Assembly: GCA_026391455.1 (NCBI GenBank)
Contig: JAPLEH010000031.1
Location: forward strand, 1-64,000
Reading direction: 5' to 3'
Length of the DNA: 64,000 bases
Source of the DNA: Bacteroidota bacterium
GTDB lineage: Bacteria > Bacteroidota > Bacteroidia > Chitinophagales > Chitinophagaceae
Shown one piece after another: positions 23,853-39,693 of the stretch. Every line of letters begins with the position of its first letter. The first letter of the stretch is position 1. The position numbers and the translations under genes were made by a program. Under the pieces are notes generated by a model. That model searched no databases. It saw nothing but the letters and a program-made list of their open reading frames with translations, and was not told where the DNA came from.

Positions 23853-24215
23853 ATGTTTGAGCACCCTTTGGAAGAAAGGTGTTTTGTATTTGCAAAAGAG
23901 GTAAGAGGCTTTTGCAGAGAGTTGAAAAAAGACATATCGAATATAGAAGACATTAAGCAACTGGTAAGGGCCAGTGCGTCAGTGGGGGCAAATTATATTG
24001 AGGCGAATGAAAATTTGGGAGAGAAGGATTTGCGGTATAGAATAAAAGTGAGCAGGAAAGAGGCGAAAGAGAGTATGTTTTTTCTTGGGTTGATCATTAC
24101 ATTCGGTAATGATGAGCACGAAAAAAGAAAACAAATACTGATAGATGAAGCTAGTCAGCTCAGGAAGATCTTTTCGGCCATGTTGAAAAAACTGGGTGAT
24201 GGAAGCAAGCAATAA
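23853..24215 (+). CDS. Four-helix-bundle protein (S23/IVP-like family)
   Basis: 120 residues from the ATG at 23853 (MFEHPLEERCFVFAKEVRGF). Residues VRASASVGANYIEANE (about 46-61) and RIKVSRKEAKESMFFLGLI match the small family first described from intervening sequences in 23S rRNA genes (TIGR02436 type). Members form pentameric four-helix bundles of unknown function and often occur singly between unrelated genes. Here it interrupts the oxidase operon between ctaB and subunit III, in the same direction. No role in respiration is known; it probably arrived as an insertion. Confidence 0.88.
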   Translation: MFEHPLEERCFVFAKEVRGFCRELKKDISNIEDIKQLVRASASVGANYIEANENLGEKDLRYRIKVSRKEAKESMFFLGLIITFGNDEHEKRKQILIDEASQLRKIFSAMLKKLGDGSKQ

Positions 24216-27277: not shown

Positions 27278-27865
27278 ATGATCCCCCAGGCAGTTTGGAA
27301 AAAAAATGACCGCAAAGCCTATTGGCTGATCGGTATTTTTTCAGTGGTGGTATTTACGGCAGTAGTGGTGCTGGGCAGGGTAAAACTGAATATACAAACC
27401 GGTTTCGATGTACATATTTTCGCCAAAGCCAATGCATTGATCAATTCCTGTGTGGCGGTTTTACTGGTCATTGCCTTATTTGCGGTGAAAAGTAAAAAAT
27501 ACATGCTGCACAAAAAACTGATGATGGCAGCGATGGTGCTCTCTGTATTATTCCTGGTAAGTTATATCTGCCATCACCTGCTTTCCGGAGAAACCAAATT
27601 TGGCGATACCGACCATGATGGTCTTCTTTCCGAAGCTGAAAAAGCAGTAGTGGGAAGCACCCGCATGATCTATTATATCATTCTCGGAACGCATATTCCA
27701 CTGGCGGGTATCATTCTTCCCTTTGTATTATTATCTGCCTATCGTGCCATGACCGGAGAATTCAATAAACACCGCAAACTCGTCCGCATTACCTGGCCCG
27801 TGTGGTTCTATGTAGCCATAACCGGGGTGATCGTGTACTGGATGATCAGTCCGTATTATAGTTGA
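27278..27865 (+). CDS. DUF420 membrane protein with an EF-hand-like loop
   Basis: 195 residues, five hydrophobic helices. FAKANALINSCVAVLLVIAL and KKYMLHKKLMMAAM are typical of DUF420. A relative in Bacillus (CtaM) is needed for caa3 oxidase activity, so a role in oxidase assembly is likely. An insertion between helices reads DTDHDGLLSEAE (about 110-121), a textbook EF-hand calcium loop (Asp at 1, 3 and 5, Gly at 6, Glu at 12). The last ~30 codons exist a second time, diverged, at 38200-38304, on the far side of the Ter gene cluster. Confidence 0.9.
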   Translation: MIPQAVWKKNDRKAYWLIGIFSVVVFTAVVVLGRVKLNIQTGFDVHIFAKANALINSCVAVLLVIALFAVKSKKYMLHKKLMMAAMVLSVLFLVSYICHHLLSGETKFGDTDHDGLLSEAEKAVVGSTRMIYYIILGTHIPLAGIILPFVLLSAYRAMTGEFNKHRKLVRITWPVWFYVAITGVIVYWMISPYYS

Positions 27866-27987
27866 TTTTACTAACGGGCGGAGCCATAAAAATTTTAAAG
27901 AATCGAAAAAAATAAAATCTTACTTTTATTTGCAAGCTATTGTTTGCGGGGTATCTGTATTTATTGATTAAGTAAAACTATTACGAG

Positions 27988-28611
27988 ATGGCTATCAATT
28001 TGCAAAAGGGTCAGAAAATCGATATCGGCCTTTCTAAAATTATTGTAGGCTTAGGCTGGGATCCTAATGAAGGAACTGGTTATGATTTTGATCTGGACGC
28101 CTCCGCTTTTTTGTTAAATGAAAACCGATCATTGGGAAGCGAAGGGCATTTTATTTTTTTTAATAATTTATGCGGAAAAGGCCATTCAAGGGCAGATGAA
28201 TGCAAAAATGCAGGATGCCAGAGTGGCGAATACGGTGTAAAACATACAGGAGATGATCCCGATGGAAAAAGCAGTGATGGCGATGATGACGAGTCCCTCA
28301 TTGTGGATCTGTCAAAAGTACCGGCCGATATTCTCGAAATCAATTTTGTAGTTACGATACATGATGCAATAACCCGTAAGCAAAATTTTGGGCAGGTTAG
28401 AAATTCGTATATACGGGTGGTGGACAATACGACCAGTCAGGAAATCGCAAAATATGAACTGGGAGAGGATTTTTCCATTGAGACAGGTGTGGAGTTTGGC
28501 CGCTTGTATAAGCGCGATGGGAAATGGAAATTTGAAGCATCCGGTATTGGGTATAAAGAGGATCTTTCATTCTTTCTTTCAAAATACTTTAAAGGGCAGA
28601 TCATAAAGTAA
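27988..28611 (+). CDS. TerD family protein with a Cys/His insertion
   Basis: 207 residues. TerD domains are calcium-binding beta-sandwich proteins of the Ter stress and tellurite-resistance systems. Conserved parts are LGWDPN...YDFDLDASAFLL (about 22-43), HTGDDPDGKSSDGDDDE (86-102), which supplies the acidic Ca2+ site, and RKQNFGQVRNSYIRVVD. Between FIFFNNL and HTGDD it has about 12-15 residues more than the TerD at 30139, with Cys62, His66, Cys72 and Cys77 spaced like a small metal knuckle. First gene of the island; the A/T-rich 122 bp upstream (27866-27987) should hold its promoter. Confidence 0.92.
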   Translation: MAINLQKGQKIDIGLSKIIVGLGWDPNEGTGYDFDLDASAFLLNENRSLGSEGHFIFFNNLCGKGHSRADECKNAGCQSGEYGVKHTGDDPDGKSSDGDDDESLIVDLSKVPADILEINFVVTIHDAITRKQNFGQVRNSYIRVVDNTTSQEIAKYELGEDFSIETGVEFGRLYKRDGKWKFEASGIGYKEDLSFFLSKYFKGQIIK

Positions 28612-28629
28612 AATACTGCGAAAAAGGCC

Positions 28630-29322
28630 ATGATTAAGTACCAGCAGTATAAGCATATCTCATTTGATTTGTGGCTAACCCTGATAAAATCAAACCCATC
28701 TTTCAAAGCTGAGCGTAACAAGGCTTTTAAGGAGATATTCCAACCGCAAGCACCCCCCAATCTTATTGATACCTGTATCAGAAAGTATGACCTGCTTGCG
28801 AACGCTATGAGTGAGAAGACCGGAAAGCACCTCAATGCTGCCCATATCTGGGCGCTCATACTGAACGAACTCGGGATGGATTTACAGAAAATGGATGAGT
28901 CCCGCTGGGAGCATTTTAACGCTGAAACAGAACGACTCTTTTTCAAATATCCCCCAGTTCTCATTGATATACAGACACCAGAACTATTTAAACAGCTGAC
29001 TGAGGAAGGTATTTCATTGAATATACTGAGTAACACAGCATTCATACCGGGAAAATTGCTGAGGCCGTTGCTGGTATACCTGAACATCGGCCAATACCTG
29101 CATTTTCAACTCTATTCAGATGAAACGGGTTATTCAAAACCGTCTTCGGAAATGTTTAAATTATTGATTCAACAGGCTGGGAGTATCCGGTCACTACAAC
29201 GGAATGAAATTTTACATATAGGAGATAACCCCTATGCCGATAAGTGGGGGGCAGAAAACGCAGGGATCAGCGCATATTTATTCGATTCTAAATCTGAACT
29301 ATTATCTTCGCGCTTCACCTGA
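28630..29322 (+). CDS. HAD-like protein of the Ter cluster
   Basis: 230 residues with the HAD Rossmann-like fold. Motif I is SFDLWLTL (about 10-17): the nucleophile Asp is there, but the second Asp (acid/base in phosphatases) is Trp. Motif II is LSNTAF, motif III the Lys in YSKPSSEMF, and motif IV HIGDNPYADKWGA. In haloacid dehalogenases that same second position is Tyr, so this is probably not an ordinary phosphatase. HAD proteins are known partners of Ter operons, where they are thought to act in making a nucleoside-like metabolite. It is 5 bp from the next gene. Confidence 0.85.
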   Translation: MIKYQQYKHISFDLWLTLIKSNPSFKAERNKAFKEIFQPQAPPNLIDTCIRKYDLLANAMSEKTGKHLNAAHIWALILNELGMDLQKMDESRWEHFNAETERLFFKYPPVLIDIQTPELFKQLTEEGISLNILSNTAFIPGKLLRPLLVYLNIGQYLHFQLYSDETGYSKPSSEMFKLLIQQAGSIRSLQRNEILHIGDNPYADKWGAENAGISAYLFDSKSELLSSRFT

Positions 29323-29327
29323 TAGCC

Positions 29328-30149
29328 ATGTACCAATCATTTTCACTATATAAAATCGAGGATAACAAAAAAATACCCTTTTCCTCTGAGGAGTATAGTA
29401 AATTTAAATTCGGAGATGGCGCAATTGCTTCAAAATTCGGGCAAAGCCTGGCATCCGAATTTATACAGCAGAATAAAGATATCCTTTTGTCCGGCAGCGA
29501 AATAGTAGTGGTGCCCAGCCCCTACAACGCTATTCCTACGGCATCTTATTGGATGTCCGCCGCATTTATTGATCGTGTAAACCATTTTCTTGCCAGTAAT
29601 GGGCTGAAATCACTCCTTACGTCTAAAATTCATCGTTACAAAACGTATAGTGCGGATTATGGCAATATGACCTATGAACAACGGCTAAATCTGATATCCG
29701 GGGATACCTACCATTTGGATAAAAGCTTTCTGGAACACCGAATCTGCCTTTTTATAGATGATATTAAAATAACCGGCAGTCACGAAAAAGTAATTCGGAC
29801 ACTCATAACAGATCAGGGAATAGAAGGACAATTTATATTCATATACTTTGCCGAACTCATAAATAAAGAAGTGGACCCCACTATAGAAAATGAGTTAAAT
29901 TACTACTACGTAAAGACGCTCGAAGACCTGATCAGCCTCATTGTGCAGGATTCGTTTGTATATAATACCCGGGTGATCAAGTATATTTTAAAAAAAGAAC
30001 CCCGGGATTTGGAAATTCTGATAAATTCAATATCTTTTAAATTAATTTCGGAGCTAGTAAGATTGGCAATTAGTAATAATTACCATGTAATGCCCGAATA
30101 TGAAAAAAGCTTACAATTTTTTATAAAACAAATAAAGTATGGCAATTAA
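29328..30149 (+). CDS. Phosphoribosyltransferase-like protein of the Ter cluster
   Basis: 273 residues. The segment ICLFIDDIKITGSHEKVIRTL (about 144-164) is a PRPP-binding motif of type I phosphoribosyltransferases (hydrophobic strand, DD, then a TGxTxx-like loop). EIVVVPSPYNAIPTAS (about 58-73) would be the PPi loop region. PRTases of this sort occur in Ter operons next to HAD proteins. Visibly A/T-rich. Its last 11 bp overlap the start of the next TerD gene (GGCAATTAA contains its GCA ATT), so translation is probably coupled. Confidence 0.8.
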   Translation: MYQSFSLYKIEDNKKIPFSSEEYSKFKFGDGAIASKFGQSLASEFIQQNKDILLSGSEIVVVPSPYNAIPTASYWMSAAFIDRVNHFLASNGLKSLLTSKIHRYKTYSADYGNMTYEQRLNLISGDTYHLDKSFLEHRICLFIDDIKITGSHEKVIRTLITDQGIEGQFIFIYFAELINKEVDPTIENELNYYYVKTLEDLISLIVQDSFVYNTRVIKYILKKEPRDLEILINSISFKLISELVRLAISNNYHVMPEYEKSLQFFIKQIKYGN

Positions 30150-30687
30150 TCTGCAAAAAGGACAGCGTGAATCAATAAACGCGCCGAAATTCACGATCGG
30201 ACTTGGCTGGGACACTAATGCTACCTCTACCGGAGCTGCTTTTGATCTGGATGCATCGGTTTTTATTTTGGGTAGTAACAAGAAAATTCTTTCTGACCAG
30301 CATTTTATTTTTTATAATAACCTTAAATCGCCCGGAGGCAGCGTAGAGCATACCGGAGACAACCTGACCGGTGATGGAGATGGTGATGATGAACAAATCA
30401 TTGTCGATTTATCTAAAGTGGAAGATGCAGCACAGGAAATTTGTATCGTGGTAACTATCCATGACGCAGAATCCCGTAAACAGAATTTCGGACAGGTGAG
30501 AAACTCCTTTGTGCGGATTTTCGATGGTAATACCGAGATTCTTAAATATGAACTCGAAGAAGATTTTTCCATTGAAACAGCAGTGGAATTCGGAAGGATC
30601 TACCGGAAAAATAACGAATGGAAATTCGAAGCGGTGGGAATGGGAATGAAAGGCGGACTTGAAGATTTTTTAAACAAATACAACTAA
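30139..30687 (+). CDS. terD: TerD family protein
   Basis: 182 residues, close to the classical TerD length of about 190. LGWDTNATSTGAAFDLDASVF (about 22-42), HTGDNLTGDGDGDDEQ for calcium, IVVTIHDAESRKQNFGQVRNSF and ELEEDFSIETAVEFGRIYR are all standard. It lacks the Cys/His insertion of the TerD at 27988. Such proteins bind Ca2+ and may assemble at the membrane with TerC. Spacing to the next gene is 10 bp. Confidence 0.93.
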   Translation: MAINLQKGQRESINAPKFTIGLGWDTNATSTGAAFDLDASVFILGSNKKILSDQHFIFYNNLKSPGGSVEHTGDNLTGDGDGDDEQIIVDLSKVEDAAQEICIVVTIHDAESRKQNFGQVRNSFVRIFDGNTEILKYELEEDFSIETAVEFGRIYRKNNEWKFEAVGMGMKGGLEDFLNKYN

Positions 30688-30697
30688 AAATAACACT

Positions 30698-31375
30698 ATG
30701 GCCATTAATTTATCCAAAGGTCAGAAAATTGACCTTCGAAAAGAATCAGGTGAAACGCTGACAAATTTTTGTGTGGGTGTAAACTGGGGCGCAATTGAAA
30801 CCGTTAAAAAAAGTTTTTTCGGCAGTAAAAAAGTCGTGGAAGATGTAGACCTCGATCTGAGTTGTATTCTTACAGATGCCAATGGTTCACTGGTCGATTA
30901 TATCTATTCTCCCGACTACAATGGGTTTCTTCAAAAAAATAATTTACCACTCGGTAAGCTGATTACCGTGGATGGTGCGCTCCGTCATAGCGGTGATGAC
31001 CGCAAAGGGGATGTAGGGGGCGATGACGGCCTTGATAACGAAGTAATCACGGTGGACCTCACTCGTGTGGCCCCAAGCGTGGAGAAAATATTTTTCTTCA
31101 TAAACATTTATCTGAACCAGGGTCAAACCCATGATTTCTCTAAAATACCTTACGCCCGTATCCGCATGTACGAAGGCACTTCCTCCAAGGTAAACAAAGT
31201 ACATTCCAGTTTCGACATTGCTACCGACAATACATATGCCAATAAAAGAGCGCTGATCATGGGCAAACTTTATAAGCGCAATACAGAATGGAAATTTGAT
31301 GCTATTGGTGACCCAACAGAAGATAAAATGTTTTTAGAGACAATCCAGAACATACTTAAAAATTACGCCAAATGA
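30698..31375 (+). CDS. TerD family protein (TerZ-like, divergent)
   Basis: 225 residues, the most divergent of the three TerD proteins. It starts MAINLSKGQKIDLRKESGE, has VGVNWGAIE (about 27-35) instead of GLGWD, then DVDLDLSCILTDANG, and for calcium RHSGDDRKGDVGGDDGLDNE (about 97-116). The end GKLYKRNTEWKFDAIGD is typical. The TGA stop overlaps the ATG of the first TerY gene by 4 bp (ATGA). Confidence 0.9.
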   Translation: MAINLSKGQKIDLRKESGETLTNFCVGVNWGAIETVKKSFFGSKKVVEDVDLDLSCILTDANGSLVDYIYSPDYNGFLQKNNLPLGKLITVDGALRHSGDDRKGDVGGDDGLDNEVITVDLTRVAPSVEKIFFFINIYLNQGQTHDFSKIPYARIRMYEGTSSKVNKVHSSFDIATDNTYANKRALIMGKLYKRNTEWKFDAIGDPTEDKMFLETIQNILKNYAK

Positions 31376-32010
31376 GAAGACTACCCGTTTACCTGCTTTT
31401 AGACACTTCGGGATCAATGAATGGTGAACCCATTGAGGCTGTAAAAAACGGCGTACAGGTAATGATCAGTTCGCTCCGGCAGAACCCACAGGCTATCGAG
31501 ACGGCCTTTATCAGTGTTATTACATTTGATTCAGAAGCCCGCCAGATTATCCCGCTTACTGACCTCGCCAGTTTTCAAATGGCAGATATCAGAGCTACCG
31601 GGGTAACCGCACTGGGAAATGCTTTGAAACTCGTGGCAGAAAAAATAGATACCGAAGTGGCCAAAACAACAGCTGAACAAAAAGGAGACTGGAAGCCACT
31701 CGTCTTTATCATGACAGATGGTATTCCCACCGATGACTGGCAGGTGGGATTAGCGGAATTTAAAAAAAGAAAAACGGCATTTACGGTAGCTTGTGCCGCG
31801 GGAAGCGGGGCTGATACGAACATACTGAAACAAATAACTGATAATGTAGTAAGCCTCGATACTGCTGACAGTGCCAGTATCGGTAAATTTTTCCTCTGGG
31901 TAACAGCATCTATCGGTGTATCATCCACCAAAGTGGAAGACAGCGGGAAAGATGTGCAGGGACTGAATGAATTACCTCCTCCACCGGCAGAATTGAATAT
32001 TGTTGTATAA
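31372..32010 (+). CDS. terY: TerY-type VWA domain protein (copy 1)
   Basis: 212 residues forming a single VWA domain, cytoplasmic (no signal). The metal-dependent adhesion site is complete: DTSGSM (11-16), the Thr of ATGVTALG (about 76-83) and the Asp of FIMTDGIPTDD. The C-terminus ends ELPPPPAELNIVV, a proline linker shared with copy 2. TerY is the scaffold-like member of the TerY-PP2C-kinase triad known from Ter systems. Starts on the 4-bp overlap with the TerD-like gene and ends 2 bp before copy 2. Confidence 0.92.
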   Translation: MRRLPVYLLLDTSGSMNGEPIEAVKNGVQVMISSLRQNPQAIETAFISVITFDSEARQIIPLTDLASFQMADIRATGVTALGNALKLVAEKIDTEVAKTTAEQKGDWKPLVFIMTDGIPTDDWQVGLAEFKKRKTAFTVACAAGSGADTNILKQITDNVVSLDTADSASIGKFFLWVTASIGVSSTKVEDSGKDVQGLNELPPPPAELNIVV

Positions 32011-32012
32011 CC

Positions 32013-32648
32013 ATGAGACGATTACCCGTTTATTTATTACTGGATACTTCCGGCTCTATGTATGGAGAACCCATACAGGCACTGAATAACGCACTGAGCA
32101 GTATGGTAAACACCCTGCGCTCAGATGCTCATGCGTTGGACTCTCTCTGGATAAGCATTGTTACATTCGACCGGGAGGTGAACGAGCTGGTACCCCTTAC
32201 CGAATTGGCCTCATTTCAACTACCGGAAATTGTATGCCCGCAAAGCGGCCCTACCCATACGGGCAAGGCACTCGAGATGCTATATCAGAAAGTAAAGAAT
32301 GAAGTAATAAAAGGAGACGCCACCCAAAAAGGGGACTGGAAACCACTCCTGTTTTTATTTACGGATGGCAAACCCAATGATTTACAACTTTACAGAGAAA
32401 TGGTTCCTAAAATACAGTCACTTAATTTTGGAGCTATTGTGTGCTGTGCCGCAGGCAATCTGGCCGATGATTCATTATTAAAAGAACTGACCAGCGATGT
32501 ACTGCATTTAGACACTGCCGACAGCGCTACGTTAAAACAGTTTTTTAAATGGGTTTCCGAAACCATCGAGCAGGGAAACAAAAGCCAGGGTACCGGTGAA
32601 AGCATGGCCTTACCTCCTCCTCCCAAAGAGATTACGATAGTAATTTAA
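32013..32648 (+). CDS. terY: TerY-type VWA domain protein (copy 2)
   Basis: 211 residues, a tandem paralogue of the preceding gene (both begin MRRLPVYLLLDTSGSM and end in ALPPPPKEITIVI-like tails). The MIDAS residues are DTSGSM, a Thr of GPTHTGKAL and the Asp of FTDGKPND. Sequence between the two copies has diverged, so the duplication is old. After it comes a 119-bp gap without a gene, containing the small hairpin TCCGCACGGA. Confidence 0.91.
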   Translation: MRRLPVYLLLDTSGSMYGEPIQALNNALSSMVNTLRSDAHALDSLWISIVTFDREVNELVPLTELASFQLPEIVCPQSGPTHTGKALEMLYQKVKNEVIKGDATQKGDWKPLLFLFTDGKPNDLQLYREMVPKIQSLNFGAIVCCAAGNLADDSLLKELTSDVLHLDTADSATLKQFFKWVSETIEQGNKSQGTGESMALPPPPKEITIVI

Positions 32649-32767
32649 ACAGACAGCGTCCGCACGGACCACCGGGGCCGTCGCAGATACAAATTTTCAA
32701 CACCGGACTTAGAGCATGTGTGCAACTGGAAGAACGTGCTAAATCCGAAAAATATGTTCAAAAGTCT

Positions 32768-33031
32768 ATGTTATTATATTTATTACTTAAACTATTTCTA
32801 ACCTTTTTGATTATTGGATTATTCCTGTACTCAAAACTGCTCCCGTACAAAGACAGACTTCATGGCCGCTACAAAGGAATGTTTAATTTTTGCAACCGTA
32901 TTTTCAGTCCGGTAATCACCTTTGTAAATGCACGGGTAAAACCGGTAAACGTAGGAACGGGCTTGTCCGTGGATATGTCACAGATAATATTACTGCTACT
33001 ATTGTTATTGCTAAACATAATAATCAGATGA
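32768..33031 (+). CDS. Small YggT-like membrane protein
   Basis: 87 residues from the ATG at 32768; an in-frame GTG at 32720 would add 16 charged residues. The first helix is MLLYLLLKLFLTFLIIGLFLY. The second part, FNFCNRIFSPVITFVNARVK then GLSVDMSQIILLLLLLLL, copies the layout of the YggT family (a helix, 'SPI..', a loop with 'DLSP', a Leu-rich helix). Its position inside the operon, one base before the third TerY gene, suggests a membrane partner of the Ter proteins. The assignment rests on pattern only. Confidence 0.65.
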   Translation: MLLYLLLKLFLTFLIIGLFLYSKLLPYKDRLHGRYKGMFNFCNRIFSPVITFVNARVKPVNVGTGLSVDMSQIILLLLLLLLNIIIR

Positions 33032-33032
33032 T

Positions 33033-34085
33033 ATGAGACGACTCCCCATTTACTTCTTAATTGATATTTCTGAATCGATGGTAGGAGATCAGATTCAGTT
33101 AGTGGAAGATGGCATGGCCACGATTATCAAGGCTGTTAAATCGGACCCATATGCTATCGAAACTGTTTGGGTTTCAATTATCGTTTTTGCCGGACAGGCA
33201 AAGACCCTCGTACCCCTGCAGGAAGTGGTCAGTTTTTATCCGCCTAAGTTTCCCATCGGAGGAGGCACCTCACTAAGCAAAGGTCTCGGGCATCTCATGT
33301 ATGAACTGCGACGCAATATCGTAAAAACGACCATGGAGCAGAAGGGCGACTGGAAACCGATCATTTTCTTATTTACCGATGGCGTTCCAACAGACGATAG
33401 CCAGGCAGCTATACAGGAATGGAAAAACAACTGGCAACGCACCGCAAATATGGTGGCTGTCAGCTTTGGGGACGAAGCAGATACCAGCATTTTACACCAG
33501 CTTACAGAAAATGTACTGTTATTTAAAAACACAACACAGGAAGATTACCGCAAATTTTTCAAATGGGTAACCGATTCCATCAAAACCAGCAGCATCAGTG
33601 TAGAAAATAACCAGTCTGGATTTGAAATGGCAAACCTCGACGGAGAAACATTAAGTAAGGCGGAGGTAACCAAAAGTCCGCAAAACAAACAATTTGCCGA
33701 CTCCAATTTTGTGGTTTTAGCAGGTAAATGCCAAAACACCAAACGCAACTACCTGATGAAATATAAGCGGGTGATTAATCCATCACAAATAGAAGGTCTT
33801 AGCCTGCAAACTGTTTCCTACCGGCTCGTGGGCGGCTTTCAGGTAGATAATACCTATACGGAACTAAGCGATGATAGCGGGTTCTCTGCAAAAGTAAATA
33901 CCGATGAGTTAATGGGTGCACCCGCCTGCCCCTGCTGCGGAAATCAATATGGATTTGCCATGTGTCAGTGTCAGAAAATCCATTGCATCGGAAATGAAGA
34001 AGTAAGTACATGCCCCTGGTGTGGCAATCAGGGTAAATATGGCTCCGGAGAAGGAGGATTTGATGTGAACAGAACACAAGGATAG
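33033..34085 (+). CDS. TerY-type VWA domain protein with Cys-rich C-terminal domain
   Basis: 350 residues. Residues 1-200 are a VWA domain like TerY (MRRLPIYFLIDISESM, GGGTSLSKG, FLFTDGVPTDD); DISES keeps the DxSxS ligands. A linker and a beta-rich segment (about 235-290) follow, then PACPCCGNQYGFAMCQCQK...CIGN...CPWCGN with eight Cys between 299 and 330, a probable double zinc ribbon. Such tails are known on TerY proteins of Ter systems. Located directly in front of the phosphatase and kinase genes, as expected for the TerY triad. Confidence 0.9.
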   Translation: MRRLPIYFLIDISESMVGDQIQLVEDGMATIIKAVKSDPYAIETVWVSIIVFAGQAKTLVPLQEVVSFYPPKFPIGGGTSLSKGLGHLMYELRRNIVKTTMEQKGDWKPIIFLFTDGVPTDDSQAAIQEWKNNWQRTANMVAVSFGDEADTSILHQLTENVLLFKNTTQEDYRKFFKWVTDSIKTSSISVENNQSGFEMANLDGETLSKAEVTKSPQNKQFADSNFVVLAGKCQNTKRNYLMKYKRVINPSQIEGLSLQTVSYRLVGGFQVDNTYTELSDDSGFSAKVNTDELMGAPACPCCGNQYGFAMCQCQKIHCIGNEEVSTCPWCGNQGKYGSGEGGFDVNRTQG

Positions 34086-34097
34086 TAATTGAAGCAA

Positions 34098-35660
34098 ATG
34101 GCCGATATTAATGATTATATGCAGCGCCTGCTGAAATCAAAAGAGATTGATGTAAGCGGCAAAAGAGCTCGTCTTGTAGATGAATTTATTGCCGATGAAG
34201 ACAATATCTTTACGTTTGAACAAATAATATCGAATCAGCAAATCTTAATAGATAGATTTATGAATAAACTAAAGGTATACGATATTATAAACCAGCATTT
34301 GCAAATTCCGAACGGAACCGTGGATAAATATTATGAGTATAAATTCGATCTGATAAAACTGGGCAAAGGCGAAATAATTTTTTCTGACCTCGAATACCCG
34401 GAAGATTTTGGTCTTACTTATAACAACGAAACAGAAACATTATCCGGCATACCCAAACAAAGCGGCGATTTCAAGATCAATTTTTTATTCAGGATCAAAG
34501 GGGAAAACCACCATACCGATACACATCGTAAACCCATTTCACTGATCATCAATGCAGACCCAAAATCCTTATGGAAAAATATTCCGAGTGATGAAGGTAA
34601 AGATGATGCCTGGAAAATAGCCAACTTCTGGAAGCCCGACAATGAAAATGCGTTTGAGAAACTTGGCCCCAAGAAAATTGTCGTTGCTTCCAAACGCGGA
34701 CGCAGCCATGCCAATGTAGGCTCGTTCAGGGATGATCACTTCGCGTATAAATTTTTAGAAAGTAATGGCTGGAGCATTGTGTGCGTGGCCGATGGTGCAG
34801 GAAGCGCCAAACTTTCGCGCCAGGGATCCAAAATTGCCTGCGAGGCCGTCATTGAGTATTTCGAAAATAATATGACTCAGGAAATCAGTGATAGTATTGA
34901 TGAAATAGCCCGTTTTTATGAAACGCGCAACCAGCCACCTGCCAATCAGCCTGAAATAGAAAATCCCGGATCTGCGGCATTGCAAAATAGTGAGGAAACA
35001 AAGGAACAAGCTGCGAATACTACCCCACTTACTGAAACGGAAACAACGATACAAACAGATCCGGCGGCTGAAATTCAAAAAAAAATAAAACTGTTTCTCT
35101 ATAATAATCTTGGTAAAGCATCTTTTGCCGCACATAAAAAACTGGCAGATTTTGCAAAGGAACAAAATTGCCAGCTCAAAGATTTGCATAGCACTCTCAT
35201 CTTTGCATTGTTTAAGAAATATGAATCCGGATATGCCGTCCTTACATTCGGAGTAGGTGATTGCCCGATCGGACTGATTAACCAGGACTTTACAGCACTG
35301 AAATTGATGAACTGGCTGGATGTAGGCGAATTTGGGGGCGGTACGAGATTTATTACCATGCCGGAAATCTTTACCAGCGAAAAATTTCCCACCCGGTTTA
35401 ACTTTGAATTCATCTCCGATTTTTCTTATCTGGTATTGATGACGGATGGTATCTATGACCCGAAATTTGTAGTGGAGGCCAATTTAGAGAAATTGGAAGC
35501 GTGGAAAGGGTTTATCAATGATCTGGATGGTACTAACGACGCGAATGCAAAAGTGGAATTCAACGCAGATAATCATGAAATTGCAAATCAATTGTCCGAA
35601 TGGATGGACTTTTGGAGCCCGGGCAATCATGACGATCGCACATTAGCCATTGTATTTTAA
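34098..35660 (+). CDS. PP2C-family protein phosphatase with N-terminal Ig-like domain
   Basis: 520 residues from the ATG at 34098; a TTG three codons upstream is an alternative. Residues 1-75 are helical. Residues about 80-152 contain YPEDFGLTYNNETETLSGIP, the 'LsyxxxTgxlsGtP' pattern of putative Ig (He_PIG) domains, unexpected in a cytoplasmic phosphatase. From about 197 it is PP2C: RSHANVGSFRDDHF, ADGAGSAKLS (Asp metal ligand), FGVGDCPIGLI, LMTDGIYD and NHDDRTLAIVF. A Glu/Thr-rich linker (about 285-330) interrupts the domain. It should remove phosphates added by the neighbouring kinase. Confidence 0.9.
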   Translation: MADINDYMQRLLKSKEIDVSGKRARLVDEFIADEDNIFTFEQIISNQQILIDRFMNKLKVYDIINQHLQIPNGTVDKYYEYKFDLIKLGKGEIIFSDLEYPEDFGLTYNNETETLSGIPKQSGDFKINFLFRIKGENHHTDTHRKPISLIINADPKSLWKNIPSDEGKDDAWKIANFWKPDNENAFEKLGPKKIVVASKRGRSHANVGSFRDDHFAYKFLESNGWSIVCVADGAGSAKLSRQGSKIACEAVIEYFENNMTQEISDSIDEIARFYETRNQPPANQPEIENPGSAALQNSEETKEQAANTTPLTETETTIQTDPAAEIQKKIKLFLYNNLGKASFAAHKKLADFAKEQNCQLKDLHSTLIFALFKKYESGYAVLTFGVGDCPIGLINQDFTALKLMNWLDVGEFGGGTRFITMPEIFTSEKFPTRFNFEFISDFSYLVLMTDGIYDPKFVVEANLEKLEAWKGFINDLDGTNDANAKVEFNADNHEIANQLSEWMDFWSPGNHDDRTLAIVF

Positions 35661-35669
35661 TTTACCGCT

Positions 35670-37178
35670 ATGCCAACAATAACAGTAAAATCGATAATCA
35701 ACGGGTCTACATACCAGTATGTAGACAATGGTGAACCGAAAAGCGGTACGGCTAAAAATGTATATTTCAGCCCCGACAAGAAATATGTGGTCGCGATTTT
35801 TAAAAAAACACCTGATTTTACACAAAAGCAACGGCTGATCAAAATTGCAACCGACCATCTCAACAGGATTAGAAACTCCGAAGGCGGTGATTATTATATT
35901 GACGAATTGTTCAGATGGCCCACCGATGTAGTGGAGTACAACAAACAAATAGGAATAATAGTACCCTTATATAAGCCGAATTATTTTTTTAAAAAAGGAT
36001 ACAGCAACCAGGATCTCATCAAAGGAGATGAAAAAAACGGAAAATGGTTTGCCGGTGCTAAATTCAGAAATAAGCAATTTCCGCTCAGCCTCGATGGAAG
36101 TGAACTGGGAACATGGCTCAGTTATTTTCAAATCTGTGTAAATATTGCAAGAGGCGTAAAGAAACTGCATCAAATGGGATTATCCCATTCAGACCTTTCA
36201 TACAATAATGTGCTGGTGGATCCCGTAGATAAATCTGCCGTTATTATTGACCTCGACAGCCTGGTGGTACCTGGTATATGGCCGGCTGATGTAATTGGTA
36301 CAGCAGATTTTATTGCTCCTGAAGTACTGGCCACCAAGCACCTGGATATTAAAGACCCGAAACGTAAACTCCCCAGCCGGCTCACCGATCTGCATGCATT
36401 TGCCTGCCTCGTATATATGTTTCTGTTGCACCGCCACCCATTAAAAGGAGGCAAAGTACATGATTTAGATACTGAAAAGGACGACTTGCTGAGCATGGGT
36501 GAAAAGGCATTGTTTATCGAGCACCCCACCGATGCCACCAACAGGCCAAAACTGAACCAGGTGTCGAAATGGGATCTGTTTTGGGCAGATGTGAATAAAC
36601 TGCCTTACACCATTACAGGCCCCTATCTCAAGGACCTGTTTGATCAGGTATTTATTAAAGGACTGCATACCCCCACGGAGCGACCCACAGCGGATCAGTG
36701 GGAGCAGGCATTATTAAAGACAACAGACCTGATGCAGCCATGCAGTAACAAAAATTGTGAGCAAAAATGGTATGTGTTTGATAACACCAATACACCTAAA
36801 TGCCCTTTTTGTGGAACCAAGCATACCGGTACATTACCAGTATTAGACCTGTATTATCAATTCAAACCAACGGTATGGAAACCGGAGAATCACCGGTTAA
36901 TGGTATATAGTAATCAGTACCTTTTTCAATGGCATGTAAACAGAAATGTAACCAGAAATGAACGGCTTTCGGCCGAACAAAAAATTCCGGTGGGGTATTT
37001 TACATTTCATAATCAAAAATGGGTATTGGTAAACCAAAAACTAACTTCGCTCAAAGACCTCACGGACGATAAAGAAATACCAATTGGTCAAATGGTGGAA
37101 CTTACGGATGGAAAGAAATTGCTACTCTCAAAAGAGGATGGCGGACGTGTGGTTGTAATAACAATGGCAAACAAATAA
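35670..37178 (+). CDS. Ser/Thr protein kinase-like protein with C-terminal zinc ribbon
   Basis: 502 residues. Kinase motifs: Lys45 in YVVAIFKK (VAIK), HSDLSYNN at 173-180 (catalytic loop, Asp175), IIDLDSL at 192-198 replacing the DFG region, and FIAPEVL (APE). A zinc ribbon follows: Cys358, Cys363, Cys378 and Cys381 (PCSNKNC ... CPFCG), and then a beta-rich tail of about 110 residues. Ter systems are known to join TerY, PP2C and such a kinase. The gene is 9 bp after the phosphatase and 5 bp before terC. Confidence 0.9.
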   Translation: MPTITVKSIINGSTYQYVDNGEPKSGTAKNVYFSPDKKYVVAIFKKTPDFTQKQRLIKIATDHLNRIRNSEGGDYYIDELFRWPTDVVEYNKQIGIIVPLYKPNYFFKKGYSNQDLIKGDEKNGKWFAGAKFRNKQFPLSLDGSELGTWLSYFQICVNIARGVKKLHQMGLSHSDLSYNNVLVDPVDKSAVIIDLDSLVVPGIWPADVIGTADFIAPEVLATKHLDIKDPKRKLPSRLTDLHAFACLVYMFLLHRHPLKGGKVHDLDTEKDDLLSMGEKALFIEHPTDATNRPKLNQVSKWDLFWADVNKLPYTITGPYLKDLFDQVFIKGLHTPTERPTADQWEQALLKTTDLMQPCSNKNCEQKWYVFDNTNTPKCPFCGTKHTGTLPVLDLYYQFKPTVWKPENHRLMVYSNQYLFQWHVNRNVTRNERLSAEQKIPVGYFTFHNQKWVLVNQKLTSLKDLTDDKEIPIGQMVELTDGKKLLLSKEDGGRVVVITMANK

Positions 37179-37183
37179 TCAAT

Positions 37184-38005
37184 ATGGATATAAGCGCACT
37201 TTTTCAGCAAATCATAGATAACCCCGGACCCTCGCTCCTCGTGATCAGTAACCTGATTATCATTGAAAGCCTGCTTTCAGTAGACAATGCAGCCGTTTTG
37301 GCAACGATGGTAATGGATCTTCCGAAAGAGCAACGAAATAAAGCCCTGAAGTATGGCATTATCGGGGCTTATGTTTTCAGAGGCCTGGCATTGGTTTTTG
37401 CAGCATTCCTCGTTCAGTTTTGGTACCTGAAACCAATCGGCGGGTTATACCTTTTGTATTTGGTATGGGACTGGTGGAAGGGAAAACAGACCGAAGACAA
37501 AGAAGATGATTTTATCGATAAGAAAGGGAATTGGCTGTACAGGATCACGGTTGGTTCACTCGGAAACTTCTGGGCAACCGTTGCACTGGTTGAATTAATG
37601 GACATGGCCTTCTCCATTGATAACGTATTTGCAGCAGTAGCCTTTTCAAAAAATATATTGATCATATGGATCGGAGTATTCATTGGAATTTTAGCTATGC
37701 GGTTTGTTGCGCAAAGCTTTGTGAAATTGATGGAAAAATATCCTTTCCTTGAAACCTGTGCGTTTATAGTAATTGCAATTTTAGGACTAAAATTATTATT
37801 GTCTGTTTATACACATTATTATCCCTGTAGTGATTTCTCCATCTTTATGGAAGGGAATCACGGGTGCCTGCAAGCGAATAATTTACCCGTACCGGAAGGG
37901 CATGCTATGGTATGGGGAGATTTGATAACTTCCTTCATTACAGTCGGAGTGTTTTTTCTTCCGATATTGTATTTTAAGGTGTTCAAAAAACCAAAGGCAG
38001 AGTGA
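37184..38005 (+). CDS. terC: TerC family integral membrane protein
   Basis: 273 residues, about seven hydrophobic helices. NLIIIESLLSVDNAAVLATMV (about 22-42) and LVELMDMAFSIDNVFAAVAFS (about 131-151) are the paired acidic 'ExxLSxDN' motifs of TerC, which sit in the membrane and are thought to handle metal ions (manganese for close relatives). The last gene of the operon; a terminator follows at 38131. Confidence 0.94.
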   Translation: MDISALFQQIIDNPGPSLLVISNLIIIESLLSVDNAAVLATMVMDLPKEQRNKALKYGIIGAYVFRGLALVFAAFLVQFWYLKPIGGLYLLYLVWDWWKGKQTEDKEDDFIDKKGNWLYRITVGSLGNFWATVALVELMDMAFSIDNVFAAVAFSKNILIIWIGVFIGILAMRFVAQSFVKLMEKYPFLETCAFIVIAILGLKLLLSVYTHYYPCSDFSIFMEGNHGCLQANNLPVPEGHAMVWGDLITSFITVGVFFLPILYFKVFKKPKAE

Positions 38006-38175
38006 TCCCTGTTTTGACAGGTGCCGGTGCATGTTTTTCAAAGAAATAATGCCGCGCTTATATGATTGAAGTGTTCAACATTTTGTAGCGGTCAACTATT
38101 TCGGGAATTTACAGCAGGATATAAAATAATAAAGGTGGATGTATCTTTAAAACGGATATGCCCACCTTTTTTTTT
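38006..38175 (+). terminator. Spacer ending in a rho-independent terminator
   Basis: No gene is seen between terC and 38130. AAAGGTGG (38131-38138) pairs with CCACCTTT (38162-38169) and the T-run continues to 38175 (nine T in all), so transcription of the Ter operon should stop here. The loop is 23 nt. Confidence 0.75.
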
Positions 38176-38304
38176 GCTGGGTATAGCGGCCTTTTAGGCA
38201 AACACTGCAAACCTGTCCGCATTACCTGGCCCGTATGGTTCTATGCAGCGGTAACCGGAGTCATCGTGTATTGGGTGAAAAGACCGTATGATACGACGGG
38301 ATAA
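38176..38304 (+). pseudogene. Remnant of a DUF420 gene 3' end
   Basis: Translating 38176-38304 gives ...GKHCKPVRITWPVWFYAAVTG and then VIVYWVKRPYDTTG and TAA, matching the end of the intact DUF420 protein (NKHRKLVRITWPVWFYVAIT, VIVYWMISPYYS). At DNA level 38200-38289 aligns without gaps to 27767-27856; I count 76 of 90 identical bases. Upstream of 38200 similarity fades. There is no start codon or room for the N-terminal part. This piece faces the same way as the intact gene, about 10.4 kb away, with the Ter cluster between them. Confidence 0.88.
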
Positions 38305-38310
38305 ATGTAA

Positions 38311-39036
38311 TCAGACACTCAGTATCTTTTCTGCCTGGTAGCCGATCAGCATCGATACAATGCCTGCCAGCAAACCTATATACACTTCGCCGGGGGTATG
38401 ATCGGATACCATGAACCGTGACGTGCAAACCAGCCCGGCAATAACCATCACCAGGGCGAGATAAACAGCATAGTTGATATCCTGAGAAAGGGCCATGAGG
38501 ACAAAGAAACAAACCACTACACCCATAGAGATGGCATGCAGGCTCACTTTCATTTTAATGTTCAGCATCAAACCGATAATGGTACTGAAAAATGCAGCGA
38601 AAGCAAATTGCACCGCATTGTGCGGAATGTCCACCACATCACGTGTCTTTCCGAAATTATTCCATACATAAGCGATCCAGAAATACCAGATCATACAAGC
38701 CATAAATGGGATGACCCGTTCTTTTTGTGTATGCAGATAAATACTGTCAATAAACTTGAGCCCTTTCAGCAATAATATAGTAATGAGCGGAAAAAAAGTA
38801 AAGGAAATGGCAGCCATCATCACCGTTCTGAATTTTTGTTCGGCTGAAAAACCGGCAAACAAATAAGGGTGAACGTAGACAAGGAACCAGATCACCATGA
38901 CCGGCACAAATACAGGATGAAATATCCAGGAGATCAGTCGGGCTAAGACTCGCAACGGAGCGGGCTGTGTTGGAAAATAGGCCGTTCTCACTTCCTGGAG
39001 CCCCTCCTGTTCATTCACCATTAAACTGCTGCTCAT
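38311..39036 (-). CDS. PAP2-like membrane protein (divergent phosphatase family)
   Basis: 241 residues, six hydrophobic helices. Late in the protein, SLHAISMG (about 179-186) and SRFMVSDHTPGEVYIGLLAG (about 211-230) resemble PAP2 motifs PSGH and SRx5Hx3D, with Glu where the Asp normally is. KERVIPF earlier could be the first motif. Members act on membrane lipid phosphates; with these changes activity is uncertain. Its stop codon is 6 bp from the end of the DUF420 remnant. Upstream, TTTACTTTGCA on the minus strand (about 39053-39063) is a possible -7 region. Confidence 0.65.
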   Translation of the reverse strand: MSSSLMVNEQEGLQEVRTAYFPTQPAPLRVLARLISWIFHPVFVPVMVIWFLVYVHPYLFAGFSAEQKFRTVMMAAISFTFFPLITILLLKGLKFIDSIYLHTQKERVIPFMACMIWYFWIAYVWNNFGKTRDVVDIPHNAVQFAFAAFFSTIIGLMLNIKMKVSLHAISMGVVVCFFVLMALSQDINYAVYLALVMVIAGLVCTSRFMVSDHTPGEVYIGLLAGIVSMLIGYQAEKILSV

Positions 39037-39261
39037 ATTGATCGGTTGAGATGCAAAGTAAAGAAATTAGCCGCAGCTATACACGACAAAAAGCGTGTAA
39101 AAACAGGTAAAAATTCGATCAGACTGTCTGGTACACAATGATATGATGACGGAATTGTACGCAATAGGGTTATAAACGGGAGCCGGAGGATAAAGAATTG
39201 CCGGTATTTTGTACATTTATCAACAGACAAGGGGTTTTCACGATATACCAAACATTCAACA

Positions 39262-39693
39262 ATGAAGCGAATAGCATTATTACTTGCCTTATTTTGTTTT
39301 GTTTTGTGCGCTGATGCGCAGAATATAAACAAACCTAAAATACAGGCCATGTACAATGCGATTAAAGCGGCAGGTATCCTGCATCCGGAATTCGTGATCG
39401 CACAATGCATGCAGGAAACGGGCAATCTGGCTTGTAAAAAATGTTGTTTGCGTTACCACAACCTGTTTGGATTTTACATTAAGGGCAACAAATGCAAAAA
39501 ATTCAGCTCCGACGAGGAGTGTATAGCTTATTATAAATCCTGGCAGGATAAACGTTATCCCAAATGGCGGAAAAAAAATCCGAAGGGAGATTATTACCAT
39601 TTCCTGAAAAGTGTGGGATATGCCACCGGCGATAAATACACCCGCGAACTGAAGCCCAAAGTGCAATGGGTGCGTAACAACCTGGTATTATAA
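39262..39693 (+). CDS. Secreted glucosaminidase-domain protein
   Basis: 143 residues with a signal peptide (1-19, ending CADAQ). ILHPEFVIAQCMQETGN (about 39-55) includes the Glu expected as catalytic acid, and NLFGFY, CIAYYKSW and KRYPKW follow the pattern of bacterial endo-beta-N-acetylglucosaminidase (FlgJ/LytG-type) domains. The protein is nearly only this domain. Four Cys around 57-78 (CKKCC...C) may form disulfides. Probably cuts peptidoglycan glycan strands. Confidence 0.85.
   Translation: MKRIALLLALFCFVLCADAQNINKPKIQAMYNAIKAAGILHPEFVIAQCMQETGNLACKKCCLRYHNLFGFYIKGNKCKKFSSDEECIAYYKSWQDKRYPKWRKKNPKGDYYHFLKSVGYATGDKYTRELKPKVQWVRNNLVL

Follow-up and report, generated by a model that had tools for sequence, protein, structure and literature searches.

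Within the window, a stretch of 64,000 nucleotides from a Chitinophagaceae genome, a Ter-type (tellurite-type) operon of ~10 kb (27988–38005) stands between two copies of the same gene end, one functional and one decaying. Sequence comparison supports a reading in which insertion of the operon took place, without an integrase, where a DUF420 (ctaM) gene ends. The features of the locus are listed in Table 1.

Table 1. Features of the Ter operon locus and its borders (positions in the window)
Feature	Position	Strand	Basis
Intact DUF420 gene (CtaM-type cytochrome oxidase assembly), last of the cox–SCO cluster	27278–27865	+	Pfam DUF420, 8.9e-41
Upstream repeat copy, functional DUF420 3′ end	27767–27860	+	94 bases, 84% identity to downstream copy
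Candidate promoter of the Ter operon	27929–27959	+	TTTG, 19 bases, TATCTGTA; read from sequence
TerD-domain protein 1	27988–28611	+	Pfam TerD, 6.4e-61
HAD hydrolase	28630–29322	+	Domain match
PRTase_3 (ComF-like phosphoribosyltransferase)	29328–30149	+	Pfam, 2.3e-78
Two further TerD-like proteins (30139–30687 and 30698–31375)	30139–31375	+	ORFs; other Ter clusters have homologues
Three VWA-type proteins and a small membrane-like ORF (32720–33031)	31372–34085	+	First protein, Pfam VWA
PP2C-type phosphatase and protein kinase	34089–37178	+	Pfam PP2C_2, 1.9e-29; Pkinase, 4.2e-11
TerC-family membrane protein (YkoY subfamily)	37184–38005	+	Pfam TerC, 6.5e-52; TIGR03716 above cut-off
Terminator-like hairpin followed by a T run, closing the operon	about 38131–38172	+	−17.4 kcal/mol, z = −2.95
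Downstream repeat copy, decaying remnant of the DUF420 3′ end	38200–38293	+	Sequence comparison
Junction between gene-end fragment and PAP2-like gene	38294–38310		In-frame TAA, 38302–38304
PAP2-like gene (−) and glucosaminidase gene (+)	38311–39693		Conserved pair elsewhere in relatives, relocated here

The intact copy belongs to a gene whose assignment to CtaM follows from its DUF420 domain and its position within a cytochrome oxidase cluster, with cox and SCO neighbours. DUF420 proteins include CtaM, which is required for cytochrome aa3 and caa3 activity (PMC9145763). The cox–SCO–DUF420 block upstream of the operon is conserved in those relatives whose sequence is long enough to judge. One genus member (G020) carries two full-length ctaM genes (C19:196–726 and C3:90825–91349). 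Inside the cytochrome oxidase cluster of the window lies a small ORF of low GC content (39%; 23853–24215), which resembles 23S rRNA-intervening-sequence proteins at a score just under the Pfam cut-off and has a homologue at the same place in another relative (G030).

The two gene ends form a direct repeat over 94 bases. Ungapped alignment of 27767–27856 with 38200–38289 gave exactly 76 of 90 identical bases, the figure that the first-pass annotation had estimated by hand. A search of the whole 5.5-Mb genome matched these two places only (E = 4.4e-22; E = 6e-21 in a self-comparison of the contig), far from the chance similarity that had been named as a possible objection. The copies are also nearer to each other than either is to any relative, the intact end reaching at most 75/90 and the fragment at most 69/90. 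The downstream copy has the orientation and reading frame of the gene end and reads KHCKPVRITWPVWFYAAVTGVIVYWVKRPYDTTG up to a stop codon; a 5′ part, noted as lacking in the first-pass annotation, was found nowhere in the genome. The same annotation had the copy keeping its frame to a stop codon. This holds, as does the orientation, but the stop is not the one of the gene: homology ends at 27860, two bases short of the intact stop codon (27863–27865), and the in-frame TAA of the fragment, which precedes the PAP2 stop by 6 bases, is therefore not its counterpart. The fragment extends four residues beyond the last aligned codon, further than is seen at any of 108 loci from relatives, a set that includes duplicates; the C-terminal length of the intact gene, unlike that of the fragment, is the commonest among them.

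The homologous block is sharply bounded on both sides, and neither end of the fragment is complete. Since the copies are 84% identical, share no exact run longer than about 20 bases and lie within one 185-kb contig, an assembly artefact is unlikely. A functional small protein made from the fragment is likewise unlikely, because conserved residues are gone and the sole upstream ATG falls inside the terminator hairpin. When 1.24 Mb of the genome was compared with itself and the resulting list sorted by eye, there was no comparable pair elsewhere, that is, none more than 5 kb apart with one copy ending a conserved gene and the other outside open frames and not a multi-copy repeat.

The DNA between the copies has the gene content of a Ter-type operon, with TerD paralogues and TerC accompanied by HAD, PRTase_3, VWA, PP2C and kinase genes (Pfam), and is closed by the terminator-like hairpin, as first described. 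Its candidate promoter presumably belongs to the Bacteroidota TTTG-N19-TAnnTTTG type. The starts of the three VWA-type proteins are 63–73% identical to one another. A comparison of base composition, suggested at the outset, sets the island apart, with a GC content of 41.3% versus 46.1% and 46.0% on the two flanks. The absence of an integrase also held: no transposase, integrase, recombinase or integrase remnant is present among the scanned genes between the copies. No convincing repeats or terminal inverted repeats were found at the ends of the island itself; with no convincing inverted repeat there and a duplication of 94 bases, the locus does not have the form of a transposon insertion.

The PRTase_3 marker gene is absent from 41 of 41 other genus genomes; this absence and the conserved upstream block support the earlier proposal that the island entered at the DUF420 3′ end. 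Across the family the kinase gene is patchy, occurring in 33 of 396 genomes and in 15 of 103 genera. The gene set is that of Ter stress-response operons and is ordinary for the family, and its order recurs in other Chitinophagaceae, where it is often similar if the cluster is complete; the present operon differs in genomic location alone. Ter clusters in other family genomes stand in different contexts, at unrelated sites. Neither ctaM nor a ctaM end is present in any of the 40 family loci retrieved that have TerC or Ter-type kinase genes, which argues against joint movement of gene end and operon.

The surroundings of ctaM were compared across relatives. The genes 3′ of DUF420 vary and include those for a PLD-domain protein, response regulators, an M36 peptidase and others, and, in two relatives, an AI-2E transporter, whose homologues in the present genome lie on other contigs only. 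A second DUF420 end, which would have weighed against an insertion, was not present at any locus of a relative: 119 partly overlapping loci, covering about 705 kb downstream of ctaM, yielded short chance matches only. In ten genus relatives there was no integrase among the first downstream genes, and thus no sign there of an integrase hotspot at ctaM. The first-pass annotation had expected DUF420 to be followed directly by the PAP2-like gene in relatives that lack the operon. Among the genus genomes and loci of relatives examined we found no such case; the PAP2–glucosaminidase pair instead adjoins another conserved block in genus relatives. Here the block is found on a separate contig (C52:136541–142320) without the pair, and other ORFs now lie at its edge. 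Pair and block are thus split between contigs in this genome and joined in relatives, which points to a lineage-specific rearrangement of the right flank. The fragment may therefore not be at its original address.

Decay between the two copies is asymmetric. Their residues differ at 7 of 30 aligned codons. At six of these seven, no more than 1 of the 100 distinct relatives has the residue of the fragment, while the residues of the intact copy at the differing positions occur in 12 to 100 of 100. The conserved residues replaced in the fragment are R166C, L168P, V179A, M189V, I190K and S191R. Synonymous differences between the copies amount to 6.5 of 19.7 sites (path averaging), a value below that of almost all congeners; by the same measure relatives average 15, with the single closest at 6.5. 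Rare residues combined with a low synonymous difference indicate that the fragment is evolving without constraint, and its visible divergence looks mainly like decay after insertion. The same pattern disfavours a donor of a different species, which had been offered as the source of a replacement gene end and hence of the difference between the copies. A simple two-rate model of our own, resting on 30 codons, places the divergence at insertion at 0.13–0.16 (95% range 0–0.66), a range within which a modestly diverged donor is possible. In general, decay-driven divergence between flanking gene ends can pass for a foreign donor. Because a functional gene end and an unconstrained copy stand 10 kb apart, the amount of decay also indicates, in relative terms, how long ago the Ter operon was acquired.

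These observations suggest one-ended homologous recombination, also termed homology-facilitated illegitimate recombination, at the ctaM end, an account that we give about an even chance as a whole. A Ter stress operon of the Chitinophagaceae type would have entered the lineage by horizontal transfer at the ctaM 3′ end, on incoming DNA in which the operon was joined to a ctaM end from this lineage or a very closely related one. On the left side, homologous recombination would have taken place within ctaM; on the right side, the event would have been closed by illegitimate recombination within the ctaM end already present. The ctaM gene upstream would have remained whole, with the displaced last 94 bases left past the operon, where they would have been released from selection and begun to decay. 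Exchange between related strains, one of two routes put forward in the first-pass annotation, thereby survives for close strains as part of the account, although neither parent was found: with no ctaM–Ter donor and no ctaM–PAP2 relative, neither side of the proposed cross has been observed. One-ended recombination is the most economical route, because there is no recombinase among the genes and there are no terminal repeats. The junction at 38199/38200 is abrupt; after this much decay and without donor sequence, no microhomology can be read from it.

The sharp bounds of the homologous block, and a divergence at insertion that may have been zero, would also suit a pair of staggered breaks in the ctaM end, ~94 bases from each other, with foreign DNA ligated into the gap during fill-in and the segment thereby duplicated. 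Such an event would resemble a very long target-site duplication and would make a donor ctaM unnecessary. It would, however, turn the intact stop into chance island sequence that falls at exactly the commonest C-terminal length, and would give the ancestral gene a C-terminus exceeding that in any of the 108 relative loci. As the intact C-terminus has the commonest length and that of the fragment is unusually long, a natural end, donor-borne or original, is favoured over a chance end, and we consider staggered breaks improbable.

Some integrative elements supply a new 3′ end to the gene that they target. The present layout, with a restored gene on one side and the displaced end on the other in the same orientation, is that of such elements, and a direct repeat of the target gene end is found at both borders. 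The Ter operon could then be what is left of an element that integrated at the ctaM 3′ end by means of an integrase since lost, with the repeats as its attachment sites. This origin is doubtful. The interval contains no recombinase gene, and neither an integrase gene nor a remnant was seen between the copies; the repeat is diverged; the site was not seen to be reused, with no integrase among the first downstream genes in the ten genus relatives and no second ctaM end in any locus of a relative; and Ter clusters elsewhere occupy unrelated sites.

A third possibility is that this lineage once held a second ctaM or a larger duplication, of which deletion and the relocation of the PAP2–glucosaminidase pair left 94 bases, the Ter operon having arrived independently. 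The genus member with two ctaM genes provides a precedent, and both the rearranged right flank and the truncation of the fragment at its two ends are in keeping with such a history. Several independent events would nonetheless be needed to account for a fragment that lies precisely on the far border of the Ter operon, which makes this course unlikely.

The proposed one-ended recombination at ctaM has a counterpart in type VI secretion (T6SS) loci. In effector–immunity modules of the Vibrio cholerae T6SS and in Rhs genes, displaced 3′ ends have been proposed to result from homology-facilitated illegitimate recombination (PMC5361080). As in the V. cholerae immunity arrays (PMC5361080), new genes follow a conserved anchor, the old gene end lies downstream and no integrase is involved. 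There, however, the anchor lies in an effector cassette that is often exchanged, whereas ctaM is a housekeeping respiratory gene that underwent a single event. The event is of a known kind; what sets it apart is confined to the anchor gene and the clean preservation of the decaying copy. The layout indicates that insertion at a gene for respiratory assembly need not lead to loss of that gene. That Ter operons in Bacteroidota move generally by an integrase-free, gene-end-replacing route, repeatedly leaving displaced gene ends, is very improbable on present counts, with one case seen and 40 other Ter or Ter-like loci checked for a ctaM end only.

Elsewhere in this genome (contig C14, 24036–39363), one gene encodes a protein of 2682 residues whose N-terminal part matches DUF6443. 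Partial copies of the 3′ part of this gene lie after it, at 32583, 34837, 37001 and 39130, interleaved with other ORFs. This layout resembles that of an Rhs-type gene with displaced ends.
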